NCBI GenBank assembly: GCA_026702755.1
Contig: JAPPBX010000036.1
Span: 1 to 64,000 of the forward strand
Direction of reading: 5' to 3'
Length of the DNA stretch: 64,000 nt
Source of the DNA: Candidatus Poribacteria bacterium
GTDB lineage: Bacteria; Poribacteria; WGA-4E; WGA-3G
Under the pieces are notes generated by a model. That model did not search any database. It had not been told where the DNA came from and was given only the letters and a program-made list of their open reading frames with translations. The translations under genes and the position numbers were made by a program. Shown here one piece after another: positions 23,090 to 29,116 of this stretch (positions are counted from its first letter, which is position 1; every line of letters starts with the position of its first letter).

Positions 23090-23121
23090 GTCGCCCCTAT
23101 CTCACCTATTTTTTTATATTA

Positions 23122-23149
23122 TGCACGTTTTCCACCTCAAAAACGTATC
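23122..23149 (+). promoter_or_regulatory. Putative ECF-type promoter, first copy
   Basis: TGCAC (23122-23126) and CGTATC (23144-23149) are 17 nt apart. CGT-containing minus-10 elements are typical of ECF sigma promoters. This is inferred from position upstream of a sigma factor gene and from conservation with 23230-23257 and 34852-34881. Confidence 0.4.
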
Positions 23150-23229
23150 TTTAATTATAAGAGGCTAATACAATATGTGAGTGTCTCGGTATTGGAAGAC
23201 GCGGTCTATTTAATTATTTTTTTATATTA

Positions 23230-23257
23230 TGCACGTTTTCCACCTCAAAAACGTATC
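23230..23257 (+). promoter_or_regulatory. Putative ECF-type promoter, second copy
   Basis: TGCAC (23230-23234) and CGTATC (23252-23257) are 17 nt apart, 92 nt before the sigma factor start. It is the duplicate of the site at 23122-23149. Confidence 0.4.
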
Positions 23258-23349
23258 TTTAATTATAAGAGGCTAACACAATATGTAAGTGTCTCGGTAT
23301 TGGAAGACGCGGTCTATTCAATCTATTCATTAGTCATGGGAGTATCCTG

Positions 23350-26247
23350 ATGGAAAGAGAAGACGATATTCAACTCATTGATAGAATTTTGTCAGGCGAC
23401 GATACAGCATTTGGAGCCTTAGTTGAAAAATATCAAAATAGTATTCATGCACTTGCGTGGCGGAAGATTGGTGACTTTCACATTGCTGAAGAGATTACCC
23501 AAGACACCTTCCTCCAAGTATACAAAAACCTCCGGCAGTTAAGGAATCCGAATCAACTCTCAGGATGGATGTATGTTATTGCCAATCGACTCTGCCTTAA
23601 ATGGCTCGAAAAGAACAAACCTAAACCTGTTATGCAATCGCTGGAGGACACACCCATGGAAGAAATCGAGAGAGCCTCTTATACACATCACGTAGCAGAA
23701 CAGCGAGAAACAGAGGACACGGAGCATCGCCATGAACTCGTCAAAAAACTGCTCGCAAAACTTCCGGAGAGCGAACGCACCGTCGTGACGCTTTATTACC
23801 TCGGTAAAATGACGACCAAGGAGATTAGCAAATTCTTAGGCGTGTCCGTGCACACAATCACAAGCCGACTTCAGCGAGCGCGAAAGCGTTTACAAGAACA
23901 GCAGGAAGTGTTAATCCAAGAAGTTCTCGGCGGTGTACGAATACCAGCAAGTTTAAGCCAGAACATCATGCGACAAGTCGCTGATATAGCACCCACACCG
24001 TCTTCGGCTTCTAAACCGTTCCTTCCATGGATGGCTTTAGGGACGGCTGCAGTTTTGATCGCTTTACTCCTCGGCGCAAGCAACCGATACCTCACCCGTT
24101 TCCAGAAGCCGTATAGTTTTGAAGCACAATCCGAACCGACGATTGAAATTGTCGATACACCTATTATCCTTGACATAGCAGCGAAACCCGCTGTGCGAAA
24201 TCAAGTCGGAAGGGTTACCACCGCCGGCGAAACCAGCCGTGCCGGCACCCAAGCTTCTAATGTAACCTCAACATCAACTGCACCAGAAAATTTCACTCAG
24301 ATTTCTACTGCGCAATGGCAGCAGGGAAACGGACCGCCAGCGGGTCCTGTACGCAATATCTTCGCCGCATCTGATGGGACCGTCTATGCCGTTATACAAA
24401 CAGGGATATACAGATTAACGGCAGATGCGACCACATGGACACGCGTCGACGCGAGTGTCCCAATTGGCGAGGCACTTATGCCGATGGCAGCGCATAAAGA
24501 AACGCTTTATATTGTTGCTGCGAATGAGATATTTGCTTCAGAGAACAGAGGTGAGACGTGGAGGACGCTGGGCCCCCGACCCAAGGGAGATGCCGTTGAA
24601 CTCGTCATCACAGATGCTGAACGAGTATCCAGTCAACAAGCACCTATTACGATGTATCTCGCCCTTAGAGATAGAGGGATTTTCTGGTCCACAGATGGTG
24701 GTGTGCAATGGAGTCCTGTTAATGACGGATTGACGGTTTCCGAAAAAATTTCCGCAATGGCTGCTGTTGGCAAAACAGTGTTTGCGGGAACAGAGAAGGG
24801 TCTCTATCGTTTCGATTCAGGTATCTGGAAAAAATTGCCGTTGGATACATCCGGAGCCGTCTGTTCCTTGGCAGTATCTGGAACTGAGCTTTATGCTGGA
24901 ATAGGGCATGAACTGTTGGTGAAATTAACGCGAGCGGAGAGGCAGGGGCTATACGGAGATTTACATTTTACCGAGATATTCCGTTCGACTGACTTAGGAG
25001 CGTCGTGGACTGAAATAAGGCTTAGAAGCAAACATCTTCGCGAAACTTCACCCGCAGGTATAACGGTTTTAGCAATGGGTAAAACGCTCTTGGCATTGAG
25101 CTACGCCCAATCGCGTTCAACGGATGGTGGACAAACGTGGACAGGACTTGAAGACGATCAGAATTTTTTGGGCAGGAGTCGCCTTCCAGCCGTGATGGTC
25201 AACGAGAGAACGTATTACAAAGCTAATTTCTGGGGCATTCACCGCACGACGGATGGGGGAGCATCATGGCATATATTTATGAATGGGGTGATGGGAACCG
25301 CTATAAGAGATTTCGTCGCGTTTAACAATAGATTATACGCTCATACCGGCTATGAAGTTTATCAATCCACAGATGGGGGCGTGTCCTGGAAAAAACTTTG
25401 GAATCATGGGCAGGAAGCGGTACTCACCATTCCTACTACCAGGATAAGTGCTGCGTCAAAACTGATACCTGTTGGTGATATTCTTTATTCTCTTTCAGCT
25501 CCAGGAGACGATGTGGGTATTTTCCGTTTATCTTCTGATGGCGATATGCTAATTCCAGTTCAAGGTATCCCTGTTTTTGACCGTTATAAACTTGGCTCTG
25601 AAAAATTTTATAAGTCAAAAGATCAAGAGGATGCTCGTATAGATCGTCTGAGAATTGAGACTGCTGCGGCGAGCCGTGATGTGTTTTATGTAGAATACAT
25701 AGGAGAACTCTTCAAATGGAAATTGGGTGATTCAGAATGGACCAGCACTGGATTCGTGGATGATAGTCATCGGTATGATGAAAAATTCGGAGAGGGATTC
25801 AAATTAGCGGTTTTAGGAAAAACTGTCTACGTAGGTAAACGGGAAGGTAAGTTGTTTCAGTCACTTGATGAAGGTAGTAGCTGGAAAAACATTACATCAA
25901 ATCTGCCACTCCACTTCACTCGTTTCAAAGATATGGTCTTTGTAAAATCAACCCTTTACGTCGCAACAGATAATGGCGTTATGGTTTCCCAAACTGGGGA
26001 ACAGTGGCTTGTGCTAACCGATAACGCAGGAGAGCATCCCATCATAAATAGCTTCGCTACGGATGGTATCAGAATTTATGGTATCAGCGATATGGGGGTC
26101 TATCGCTTGGATATTCGTAGTCAATGGAAGCAAGTTTCTACAGAGGTGCCAGATGGGATGGTTTCTCCTGCTATTACTAACGATAGACTCTATGGTGTCG
26201 TCGAAGGACAGGGGATACTTCACAGCTCCCTTGCTGAAGAACGGTAA
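23350..26247 (+). CDS. ECF sigma factor fused to a membrane anchor and BNR-type beta-propeller
   Basis: The product is 965 aa. Residues 8-90 are sigma-70 region 2 (IHALAWRKIGDFHIAEEITQ) and about 130-185 region 4, with the helix-turn-helix MTTKEISKFLGVSVHTITS. One hydrophobic helix lies at about 224-245 (WMALGTAAVLIALLLGA). The remaining 700 residues carry several Asp-box motifs (TDGGQTWTG, TDGGVSWKK, DEGSSWKN), the mark of BNR/sialidase-like propellers, and would face the periplasm. A membrane-bound sigma factor with its own sensor is implied; release by proteolysis would be one way to reach DNA, but this is not shown. ATG at 23350 has GGGAG 6 nt upstream. Two putative ECF promoters precede it. 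Confidence 0.9.
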   Translation: MEREDDIQLIDRILSGDDTAFGALVEKYQNSIHALAWRKIGDFHIAEEITQDTFLQVYKNLRQLRNPNQLSGWMYVIANRLCLKWLEKNKPKPVMQSLEDTPMEEIERASYTHHVAEQRETEDTEHRHELVKKLLAKLPESERTVVTLYYLGKMTTKEISKFLGVSVHTITSRLQRARKRLQEQQEVLIQEVLGGVRIPASLSQNIMRQVADIAPTPSSASKPFLPWMALGTAAVLIALLLGASNRYLTRFQKPYSFEAQSEPTIEIVDTPIILDIAAKPAVRNQVGRVTTAGETSRAGTQASNVTSTSTAPENFTQISTAQWQQGNGPPAGPVRNIFAASDGTVYAVIQTGIYRLTADATTWTRVDASVPIGEALMPMAAHKETLYIVAANEIFASENRGETWRTLGPRPKGDAVELVITDAERVSSQQAPITMYLALRDRGIFWSTDGGVQWSPVNDGLTVSEKISAMAAVGKTVFAGTEKGLYRFDSGIWKKLPLDTSGAVCSLAVSGTELYAGIGHELLVKLTRAERQGLYGDLHFTEIFRSTDLGASWTEIRLRSKHLRETSPAGITVLAMGKTLLALSYAQSRSTDGGQTWTGLEDDQNFLGRSRLPAVMVNERTYYKANFWGIHRTTDGGASWHIFMNGVMGTAIRDFVAFNNRLYAHTGYEVYQSTDGGVSWKKLWNHGQEAVLTIPTTRISAASKLIPVGDILYSLSAPGDDVGIFRLSSDGDMLIPVQGIPVFDRYKLGSEKFYKSKDQEDARIDRLRIETAAASRDVFYVEYIGELFKWKLGDSEWTSTGFVDDSHRYDEKFGEGFKLAVLGKTVYVGKREGKLFQSLDEGSSWKNITSNLPLHFTRFKDMVFVKSTLYVATDNGVMVSQTGEQWLVLTDNAGEHPIINSFATDGIRIYGISDMGVYRLDIRSQWKQVSTEVPDGMVSPAITNDRLYGVVEGQGILHSSLAEER

Positions 26248-26497: not shown

Positions 26498-27385
26498 ATG
26501 AGACACCGACAAATCCTTACATGCCTCTTTTTACTTGTTTTGATTCCGCTGAGTGCGAAAGCGTTCCCGCCCCCATCACCCGCGGGCGGGAACTATTTAG
26601 TCCTTGACGGGGTCGATGACTACGCCGTTTTGGATTTTGAAACCTTTGGTATGCTTTTACCCGAAGGCGCGGACGAATTCACCATTGAAGCATGGATATA
26701 TCCAACTACGCCGCCCGACGAGAAGACAGCAGCAACGATACTCAGTCAACAGATGCGTATGCGTGTTCTAAACGATGAATTTCAGGCACTAAATAACATA
26801 CTTCAGGGATTACATAACATGAACGGTCTCCCTGAGGCGGACGTGGTCTTGATAATGGATGCCCATCTTTCAGGACGCGGCGCGCATGCCACGACACCAT
26901 TTTTCCCGATTCCACTCTCGCTGAACCAATGGCACCACATCGCTTTTCAGGCGAAAGGAAATCAGACGACAACGATCGTCAATGATCTTGTGAGGACATG
27001 GGAACTCGGGACACCTATCGGAAACGAGTTCGCTTGGCGTCCAAAGAACTTTACGATCGGAGGATTTGGAAAAAAAATTGAGGTGCCTTGGAGGAACAGA
27101 TGGTTTTGGGGTTCCTTTAGTGGATATATTGATGAGGTTCGTATCTCAAAGGATGCCCGTTATGATGTTAACAAAAAGGGTGTTGTGCCACGAGGAAAAT
27201 TCAAGGATGACGCAAAGACGGTTGCCTTATGGCATTTTGATGAACCCGGTGGCACCCAGCAATTTTCAGATGCATCGGGCAACGCGTATCATCTGATGGG
27301 TATAGGCGGTGCAAAGACCGGAAACCCGCTCGCCGTCGAAGCACAAGGAAAACTCGCGACGACATGGGGGCGACTTAAGCAGTAG
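26498..27385 (+). CDS. Secreted LamG/concanavalin-like domain protein
   Basis: The product is 295 aa. A signal peptide ends at AKAFP. The mature part matches LamG-like jelly-roll domains: NYLVLDGVDDYAVLDF at the start, FTIEAWIYP, LNQWHHIAFQ and later FSGYIDEVRISKDAR with TVALWHFDE. These domains usually bind glycans or other cell-surface ligands. The C-terminus carries the KLATTWGRLK tag also seen in the nearby remnant, suggesting a family-specific tail of unknown role. The ATG has a strong Shine-Dalgarno sequence, AAAAGGAGAT. A tRNA-like sequence and a terminator follow the stop codon. Confidence 0.88.
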   Translation: MRHRQILTCLFLLVLIPLSAKAFPPPSPAGGNYLVLDGVDDYAVLDFETFGMLLPEGADEFTIEAWIYPTTPPDEKTAATILSQQMRMRVLNDEFQALNNILQGLHNMNGLPEADVVLIMDAHLSGRGAHATTPFFPIPLSLNQWHHIAFQAKGNQTTTIVNDLVRTWELGTPIGNEFAWRPKNFTIGGFGKKIEVPWRNRWFWGSFSGYIDEVRISKDARYDVNKKGVVPRGKFKDDAKTVALWHFDEPGGTQQFSDASGNAYHLMGIGGAKTGNPLAVEAQGKLATTWGRLKQ

Positions 27386-27410
27386 AAGGATATATTACCA
27401 ATTTACCTAA

Positions 27411-27483
27411 CGCGGTGTAGAGAAATTGGTATCTCGCGTGATTCATTCCTATGAGGTTGGGCGTTCAAGCCGTCCCACTGCAA
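27411..27483 (+). tRNA. Initiator-like tRNA-Met (CAU), divergent or degenerate
   Basis: The 73 nt fold with standard lengths: acceptor CGCGGTG/CACTGCA (7), TA, D-stem GAGA/TCTC with loop AATTGGTA, G26, anticodon stem CGTGA/CTATG with loop TTCATTC (CAT at 27444-27446), variable AGGTT, T-stem GGGCG/CGTCC with loop TTCAAGC, discriminator A. Positions U8, A14, A15-U48, GG18-19, A21, U33, G53, TTCAA and C61 are as expected. C1-A72 is unpaired and pair 11-24 is A-U, both initiator hallmarks. However, the three G-C pairs of initiator anticodon stems are absent, pair 31-39 is A-C, and position 37 is T instead of a purine. CCA is not encoded. It may be a pseudogene or a specialised tRNA. Confidence 0.6.
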
Positions 27484-27485
27484 TG

Positions 27486-27539
27486 GCTACCTGATATTCT
27501 ATACATGAAAGTCCTCCAATGCTTGATTTGTCAGGTAGC
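27486..27539 (+). ncRNA. Stem-loop directly downstream of the tRNA-like sequence
   Basis: GCTACCTGA (27486-27494) pairs perfectly with TCAGGTAGC (27531-27539), enclosing a 36-nt loop that includes GTCCTCCAATG, with a CCTCC able to pair with Shine-Dalgarno sequences. It begins 2 nt after the tRNA-like sequence. An RNA role is inferred only from the structure. Confidence 0.35.
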
Positions 27540-27562
27540 AATTCTCTTACTTTAGAAGACTG

Positions 27563-27594
27563 ATAGGTGCGGTGAAAACCGCACCTATATTTTT
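27563..27594 (+). terminator. Strong Rho-independent terminator
   Basis: ATAGGTGCGGT (27563-27573) and ACCGCACCTAT (27578-27588) form an 11-bp stem closed by GAAA and followed by ATTTTT. It would end a transcript containing the LamG gene, the tRNA-like sequence and the stem-loop. Confidence 0.85.
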
Positions 27595-27748
27595 GTCTCA
27601 GCGCAACAAAGAAAAGTGAAAAAAATCTCAACTTTCAGCAAAGTATGTGGTATCATAGATTGTATCTATGATTAAACTCAACGACTGGCTGAATCCATAC
27701 GAAATGCTGCGAAAATAACCTCAAAACCGTTTACCAAGAGGAATAGCT

Positions 27749-29116
27749 ATGACAACTCATGAGACACTTGAGGCAAAAGTCGATCAACTGTTTGCGGAAT
27801 GGAACAGGTCGGATTCCCCAGGTGCTGCTCTGGCGGTTACCAGAGAGGGTGAAATCATCTATAAACGCGGCTACGGGATGGCGAACCTTGAATATGACAT
27901 CCCCATTACAACAACGACCATCTTCGATATCGCTTCGGTGTCCAAGCAATTCGCGGCGTTTGCTATTGCCACTTTAGCGCACGACGGAAAACTTTCGTTA
28001 GATGACAACATCCGAACGTACCTGCCTGATGTTCCGGATTTTGGACACACAATCACACTCCGACATCTTTTGCATCACACCAGCGGATTACGGGATTGGG
28101 TGCAATCTCTTGTTATCGCGGGAGTCACAATGGAGGATGTAATTTCGTTCAAACACATCTTAAAAATGGTCCGTCAGCAGAAAGCACTCAATTTCGAGCC
28201 GGGGGCAGCATATTCATACAGCAATACGGGCTACAATCTGCTCGCAGAAATTGTCGAAACGGTAACAGGGGATTCATTTCGGGAATGGACGGATGCCAAC
28301 ATCTTCAAGCCGCTCGCAATGACGAACTCTCACTTTCACGATGACCACCAAATGATACTGAAGAACCGAGCGTATTCGTATCAAGCGGTCGAAAATGGTG
28401 GGTTTAAACATGCTGTCAATAATACAACTGCTCTCGGTTCAAGCTCCCTCTTTTCAACGGTGGAAGACCTGGCGAAGTGGATTCTGAACTTTGATAACAT
28501 ACAGATTGGCGAACAAACAGTGATTGAACAGATGCACCAGCGTGGCGTGCTTAACAACGGGGAACAGATTAGTTACGCCTTCGGATTGAACATCGGTGAC
28601 TATAGAGGATTGAAAACGGTCGGACACAGCGGGTCGTGGCGGGGATTTCGGAGCCATTTGATGCGCTTTCCCGATCAGAAATTTGGCGTTGTCATCTTAT
28701 GTAATCTGGATACCTTTAATCCACTCCGTTTGGCAGAAAAAGTCGCTAATATCTATCTCACTGATGTCCTCGCTCCTTTAGAAGCATCCGAGTCAGAAAA
28801 AGAAGTAGAGCCGGCTGAAGACACCAAATCTGAACCACTGGCACTGGAACAGTTGACGGAATTTGAAGGTGACTACCATACTGAAGAACTCGATACAACC
28901 TATACCATTCGTGCGCGTGAGGATGGACTCGTGGCACAACACATACGGCACGATGATATATTGCTAACCTACACCGACGGTCATTTCCATGGGGATTCCT
29001 GGTTTTTTCCAGAGGTGCGCTTTACACGAGACGATGCTGGACGCGTTACAGGGTTTAAACTGACCGGAGGCAGAGTCAAAAACCTGTATTTTGAGAAAAA
29101 GACACGTTTTGCCTGA
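27749..29116 (+). CDS. Serine hydrolase, beta-lactamase class C family
   Basis: The product is 455 aa. It has the penicillin-binding-protein/class C fold: the nucleophile motif SVSK in FDIASVSKQFAAF (SxxK), YSN in AYSYSNTGYN (YxN) and HSGSWRGF (the KTG-equivalent HxG). HLLHHTSGLRDW is a conserved family segment. The last 110 residues form an extra beta-rich domain (LTEFEGDYHTEELDTTYTI), as in many esterase-like members. No signal peptide is visible, so the protein may be cytoplasmic, unlike true beta-lactamases. The role could be esterase or peptidase; the substrate is unknown. GAGGAA precedes the ATG at 27749. Confidence 0.9.
   Translation: MTTHETLEAKVDQLFAEWNRSDSPGAALAVTREGEIIYKRGYGMANLEYDIPITTTTIFDIASVSKQFAAFAIATLAHDGKLSLDDNIRTYLPDVPDFGHTITLRHLLHHTSGLRDWVQSLVIAGVTMEDVISFKHILKMVRQQKALNFEPGAAYSYSNTGYNLLAEIVETVTGDSFREWTDANIFKPLAMTNSHFHDDHQMILKNRAYSYQAVENGGFKHAVNNTTALGSSSLFSTVEDLAKWILNFDNIQIGEQTVIEQMHQRGVLNNGEQISYAFGLNIGDYRGLKTVGHSGSWRGFRSHLMRFPDQKFGVVILCNLDTFNPLRLAEKVANIYLTDVLAPLEASESEKEVEPAEDTKSEPLALEQLTEFEGDYHTEELDTTYTIRAREDGLVAQHIRHDDILLTYTDGHFHGDSWFFPEVRFTRDDAGRVTGFKLTGGRVKNLYFEKKTRFA

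Follow-up and report, generated by a model that had tools for sequence, protein, structure and literature searches.

The window, the whole 64-kb stretch of DNA analysed here (contig C36 of a 5.84-Mb genome, G000), contains an RNA unit of several parts, an initiator-like tRNA, a hairpin and, usually, an intrinsic terminator, which lies in the 3' untranslated region of a gene with a laminin-G domain. The unit is conserved, structured and syntenic, and the loop of its hairpin matches a single gene start in antisense at 20-23 of 25 positions. We give about even chances to the reading that an antisense RNA would be excised from the tRNA precursor, with its loop blocking translation of one unlinked gene.

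The tRNA and its initiator traits

ARAGORN calls a tRNA-Met(CAU) of 73 nt on the plus strand at 27411-27483, in agreement with the original prediction of an initiator-like tRNA there. It is the sole tRNA call in the window, and 200 first-order Markov windows of 64 kb yielded two tRNA calls, neither of them with CAT. The features first described from the letters are found both in the sequence and in the ARAGORN drawing, i.e., a 7-bp acceptor stem, the C1×A72 mismatch, A11-U24, A15/U48, the CAU anticodon, U37 and a broken A31×C39 pair. The window copy goes unreported by Rfam RF00005 even at E ≤ 10 (86 nt searched), and energy alone gives no cloverleaf for its 73 nt (z -0.34). The covariance check that had been proposed thus fails for the window copy but succeeds for six relatives, in which the homologous locus scores 52.6-58.3 bits to RF00005 (cut-off 29). 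Furthermore, RNAalifold recovered the cloverleaf unprompted from the seven-way alignment. Because of the scores in the relatives and this cloverleaf, the window sequence is judged to be a real tRNA gene, its reality resting on homology.

In the quoted part of PMC7949028, the C1×A72 mismatch and the G-C pairs 29-41, 30-40 and 31-39 are among the defining features of bacterial initiators. Of these marks, the 1-72 mismatch is present and the three G-C pairs only partly. Base 1 is unpaired with base 72 in all seven copies (C·A in six, C·C in one), and 11-24 is a purine-pyrimidine pair throughout (A-U in six, G-U in one). Pair 29-41 is U-A in every copy, replacing G29-C41, and the run of three G-C pairs is thus nowhere complete; 30-40 and 31-39 are G-C in six copies and G·U and A·C in the window. 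The anticodon-stem GGG/CCC had been described as absent, which holds for the window but not for the relatives, where G30-C40 and G31-C39 are kept and the difference is confined to U29-A41. The tRNA stems are intact in all seven copies, with A31×C39 in the window as the single exception.

Judged from sequence, the second initiator-like tRNA is intact in six relatives. This raises the alternative of a plain second initiator tRNA gene for translation (a pseudogene in the window), in which case the trailer would be incidental and its resemblance to a gene start accidental or a common style of ribosome-binding site. We regard this as possible though unlikely. The traits shared with bacterial tRNA-fMet (RF00005) agree with it, namely the cloverleaf with the scores given above, CAU, C1 unpaired with 72, R11-Y24 and, in six of seven copies, G30-C40 and G31-C39; the nearest sequences are also initiators, with group means of 63-74% against 45-51% for other tRNAs. 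The differences from tRNA-fMet are U29-A41 in all seven copies, the broken anticodon stem of the window copy, the conserved antisense hairpin attached to the tRNA, and far faster evolution than that of the genome's own tRNA-fMet. The last of these argues against the alternative: a search of 12 genus genomes found canonical tRNA-fMet in 10, at 100% identity (the two without a match, G004 and G006, are 81% and 93% complete), and the many positions at which the second tRNA departs from it suggest a different constraint. Comparison with the main tRNA-fMet, as originally proposed, confirmed that the genome retains a normal gene (CGCAGGG..., with GGG/CCC in the anticodon stem) beside the window copy; its remaining CAU tRNAs include an elongator tRNA-Met and one further tRNA with this anticodon. 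CCA is unencoded in the second tRNA and equally in the genome's tRNA-fMet.

Seven changes are private to the window copy, four in the anticodon arm and three in the T arm (two of the latter forming a compensating 52-62 swap), and none in the acceptor or D arm. The bias toward the anticodon arm is weak (P = 0.047). Passages of PMC13092985 record a 4-bp anticodon stem in only 82 of 50,849 bacterial tRNA-fMet genes, by which count a functional initiator would very seldom have a broken 31-39 pair like that of the window. The window copy appears to be decaying, mainly in the anticodon arm; in our reading, decoding would have been lost and the processing-relevant half (acceptor and T arms) kept. Of the two options originally offered, a second unusual initiator-type tRNA describes the intact copies of the six relatives and not the window genome, and decay applies to the window copy only.

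Two other tRNA-like loci were observed in the same genome. An odd 68-nt tRNA-Phe-like gene (G000:C65:372-439, minus strand, 33.4 bits) adjoins a normal tRNA-Ala, and a selenocysteine tRNA (tca) is predicted at G000:C86:5686-5772 (21.2 bits to RF00005).

Conservation, structure and history of the unit

The original prediction hinged on conservation in relatives, and the locus is present in six related genomes. A DNA search against 60 relatives recovered 160-220 bp around the tRNA, 81-87% identical, from six genomes, all of the same genus. A covariance model of the tRNA and the following hairpin, built from the seven copies, was then run on 84 genomes of the phylum. The unit (tRNA-like part plus a 60-68-nt hairpin) was found in seven of them at 145.6-181.5 bits, the window copy scoring lowest, and all others scored at most 63.4. 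The carriers (G000, the window genome, and G004, G006, G013, G015, G019 and G032) are seven of the 38 genomes of one Poribacteria genus, and the unit occupies one syntenic locus in them. Partial DNA matches in G005, G010 and G029 were set aside, since by frame reading they are coding sequence of an enolase-superfamily-like gene.

The upstream neighbour, the same in the carriers, is the laminin-G-domain gene (26498-27385, plus strand, an open frame of 295 aa with Pfam Laminin_G_3), whose stop codon lies 25 nt upstream of the tRNA and whose 3' region holds the unit. Downstream, and likewise shared by the carriers, lies a gene of the serine beta-lactamase family (27749-29116, plus strand, Pfam PF00144), separated from the unit by an insert of more than 1 kb in G004. 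Elsewhere in the neighbourhood, 27599-27748 is probably a gene remnant, since its counterpart in G026 resembles, by eye, the C terminus of a further protein (..NYWLNPHEVLKK). A 965-aa frame at 23350-26247 fuses an ECF-type sigma factor to a BNR/sortilin-like propeller region, and a tandem duplication of 108 bp (97% identical) is located at 23107-23322.

The stem-loop containing CCTCC and the terminator that had been read behind the window tRNA are both present. By alignment and RNAalifold, the trailer hairpin (27484-27541, plus strand) has an 11-pair stem (27484-27494 with 27531-27541) around a long loop. Stem pairs are retained in 97.9% of the cells of the seven-copy alignment, with three two-sided changes; pair 75-138 is non-standard in the window. 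The terminator scan placed an intrinsic terminator at 27563-27598 on the plus strand, with an 11-pair stem (27563-27588) followed by a T tract, so the RNA from the tRNA 3' end through the terminator spans 27484-27598 in the window. In G004 and G013, the terminator behind the hairpin is shifted or disrupted by inserts, which speaks against an antisense RNA. The terminator hairpin AGGTGCGGT...ACCGCACCT (27563-27588) is also a repeated element throughout the genus, as seen from many short DNA matches.

Two structural candidates were rejected. An inverted repeat linking the leader (27396-27409) to the D arm (27418-27431) is best in the window and shows no compensation in relatives. Rfam matches of the trailer lie far under their gathering scores (STnc400, 23.3 of 80 bits; RsaE, 22 of 79; nqrA-II, 15.9 of 55; SECIS_1, 15.8 of 35), and these sub-threshold matches are chance, driven by the shape of a hairpin plus terminator.

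Sequence identity was compared among five of the six relatives (G004 was omitted because its insert breaks the downstream region), taking as baselines the intergenic stretch after the unit and the third codon positions of the next gene. Among these five, identity is 92.9% in the tRNA, 92.4% in the hairpin and 93.6% in the terminator, against 82.5% in the intergenic stretch and 72.5% at third codon positions. Between the window and the same five carriers, the corresponding values are 84.7%, 90.6% and 93.9%, against 81.2% and 64.6%, which suggests that hairpin and terminator are still constrained in the window lineage and that the tRNA has slackened. The CCTCC stem-loop thus appears to be the better-kept part of the unit in the window genome, a point overlooked by the original prediction and one that disfavours a plain initiator tRNA with an incidental trailer.

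In an rpoB tree built from 37 genomes of the genus, the carriers do not group together, which implies at least five changes, and in the tree of the beta-lactamase gene (30 genomes) the window copy groups with G001 and G007, away from the other carriers. In G008 and G023 both neighbour genes are present, and ~150 bp are absent between window positions 27405 and 27556. Old presence with repeated loss and spread with the locus both fit this history. The tRNA itself may derive either from the host tRNA-fMet or from a phage.

The scattered carriers and the sites without the ~150 bp could also be explained by capture of a phage-type initiator-like tRNA, the unit being a mobile-element remnant that, as a small insert, is passed on or disappears. 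A pattern search with the anticodon arm returned 18 viral contigs, 17 of which (IMG/VR L208-L221 and L223-L225) hold a predicted tRNA-Met(CAU) that has U29-A41 and an encoded CCA. Base 1 of these tRNAs is usually not paired with 72, and they are usually the sole tRNA called in the stretch. These contigs seem to represent an initiator-like tRNA family in phages or prophages. The shared features are an identical anticodon arm with U29-A41 and, mostly, the unpaired base 1; on the viral side CCA is encoded, the trailer is another one and no antisense loop was seen. However, the viral tRNAs were selected by the anticodon-arm pattern itself, and without the anticodon arm the tRNA body is closer to Poribacteria tRNA-fMet (group means 69-75%) than to them (61-67%), only one other viral tRNA (L076) being closer, at 75-80%. 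The whole 221-bp unit had no DNA match in the phages searched, the tRNA alone gave weak matches only in phages and plasmids, and no mobile-element gene adjoins the unit in the window. Phage capture is therefore considered improbable, and origin would in any case not decide present function.

An antisense match to one gene start

The original prediction also overlooked that the loop of the CCTCC stem-loop is, as read from the two sequences, antisense to one specific gene start. A 25-nt loop motif (27498-27522, plus strand), found by pattern search and pairing, is antisense to the Shine-Dalgarno sequence and AUG of G000:C29:34077-35300, a minus-strand gene unlinked to the unit. Consistently, the loop complement ATTGGAGGACTTTCATGTATAG (27499-27520, minus strand) resembles a Shine-Dalgarno sequence with a start codon. 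When a 22-nt motif was searched with up to three mismatches, 27 matches were found in the 38 genus genomes, seven being the element itself and 20 lying elsewhere, whereas the reversed-pattern control gave three. Of these 20, 19 coincide with the start codon of orthologues of a single gene (MYRKLFTIG...); in the remaining case (G030), a partial match to that gene begins ~350 nt downstream of the motif. The protein query used for the motif matches omitted the first methionine. A general style of ribosome-binding site, as the plain initiator tRNA would require, does not explain a loop that matches one gene only across 38 genomes. The target protein has a weak Pfam match to RhaB_D2 and, from its N-terminus, is putatively secreted. 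Orthologues or near relatives of the target were examined in 30 genomes. The element is missing in most species having the target gene, so such regulation would be dispensable.

Pairing between each loop and its own target is contiguous over 23 pairs in G032, G006 and G004 and over 22 in G015, and covers 22 of 25 positions in G013 and in G000, the latter with an A·C mismatch beside the AUG. G019 pairs at 20 of 25 positions only, which counts against the antisense reading. Predicted loop-target energies range from -27.9 to -40.4 kcal/mol for the 25-nt loop in the seven carriers, and none of 180 other gene starts was equally good in any of the seven genomes; loci of the element's complement had been removed from this background, shrinking it from 417 to 180 starts. 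In the test with the whole hairpin, 1-24 of 417 starts were equally good, but the element's own complement contaminated that background. Taken together, the motif search and the energy test show that the complementarity to the ribosome-binding site of one mRNA exceeds chance. The base beside the AUG reads A/U (loop/target) in G032, G004 and G019, G/C in G006, G015 and G013, and A/C in G000. This loop-target covariation, found in six of seven genomes with the window genome as the exception, is suggestive only (one-sided Fisher's exact test, P = 4/35 = 0.11).

The match could also have arisen by a recombination accident, the hairpin being an inverted copy of the target start that is either inert or serves as the ribosome-binding site of a short minus-strand peptide. 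On the minus strand, GGAGG-6 nt-ATG TAT AG equals the target's own first codons, and open frames of 13-68 codons lie downstream of that start. The frame is not conserved, however (13, 13, 68, 43, 68, 68 and 43 codons; G019, with an intact tRNA, has 13), and a minus-strand peptide gene was set aside for this reason. An inert sequence would be unlikely to retain 23 of 25 bases across seven species whose third codon positions are ~65-73% identical, and covariation is seen in the stem enclosing the loop. Recent gene conversion is disfavoured by a single G-U difference between loop and target that all seven retain. We consider an inverted copy unlikely, less so than phage capture and more so than a plain initiator tRNA.

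A proposed antisense RNA and its counterparts

A scan of three copies for sigma-70-like promoters gave none between the stop codon of the upstream gene and the tRNA, so transcription is expected from the laminin-G gene. In the antisense RNA that we propose, a transcript would run in from this gene, the tRNA body would be cut out by RNase P at its 5' side and by RNase Z or RNase E at its 3' side, and a trailer RNA of ~115 nt (27484-27598) would be freed. By pairing, the trailer loop would then cover the target's start codon and ribosome-binding site, and initiation would be blocked. In the window species the tRNA body, without a sound anticodon arm, would now be at most a processing signal, because the acceptor and T arms, which processing enzymes read, remain. 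It is very improbable, in our estimate, that the tRNA body is itself part of the repressor, the loop covering the Shine-Dalgarno sequence and AUG and the initiator-like body occupying or mimicking the ribosomal P site or its factors.

Similar C-terminal tails occur in the products of the upstream gene and of the target gene (TTWGRLKQ and TTWGSLKAR), a hint that both may belong to one surface-protein family. As a speculation, the RNA could tune one member of this family when another is expressed.

Each part of the unit has a known counterpart. CopA/CopT and the C-rich loops of RsaE-type RNAs are start-site-blocking antisense RNAs, with a loop complementary to the Shine-Dalgarno sequence and start codon; to our knowledge, they carry no attached tRNA. 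For a trans-encoded RNA, a near-perfect antisense match of ~23 bp to a gene at another locus is unusually long. In the tRNA-microRNA transcripts of murine gammaherpesvirus, a tRNA-like part is followed by a regulatory hairpin; these belong to a eukaryotic virus, RNA polymerase III and the microRNA pathway, and no homology is claimed. The nearest precedent is 3'ETS-LeuZ, the 3' external transcribed spacer of E. coli glyW-cysT-leuZ, which, in the part of PMC6191717 drawn on here, is excised from a tRNA precursor and acts by pairing. The two have in common the 3' side of a tRNA precursor, an intrinsic terminator and base pairing (predicted here). As far as that part of PMC6191717 goes, 3'ETS-LeuZ pairs with the small RNA RyhB, whereas the predicted partner here is the start site of an mRNA; here, moreover, a long hairpin loop would do the pairing, and the tRNA is a surplus gene within the 3' region of a protein gene. 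Full-text word searches found no description of their combination, an antisense RNA joined to a tRNA, directed at the start of one mRNA and located in the 3' region of a protein gene. Literature searches for the phylum returned no title on tRNA or small-RNA biology (judged by title).

If the antisense reading is true, a tRNA gene that the cell could spare has come to carry an antisense RNA. The locus provides a testable target and a natural series from intact to decaying tRNA over a conserved trailer. It also cautions that an isolated, odd tRNA call in a genome can be the sign of a regulatory RNA.
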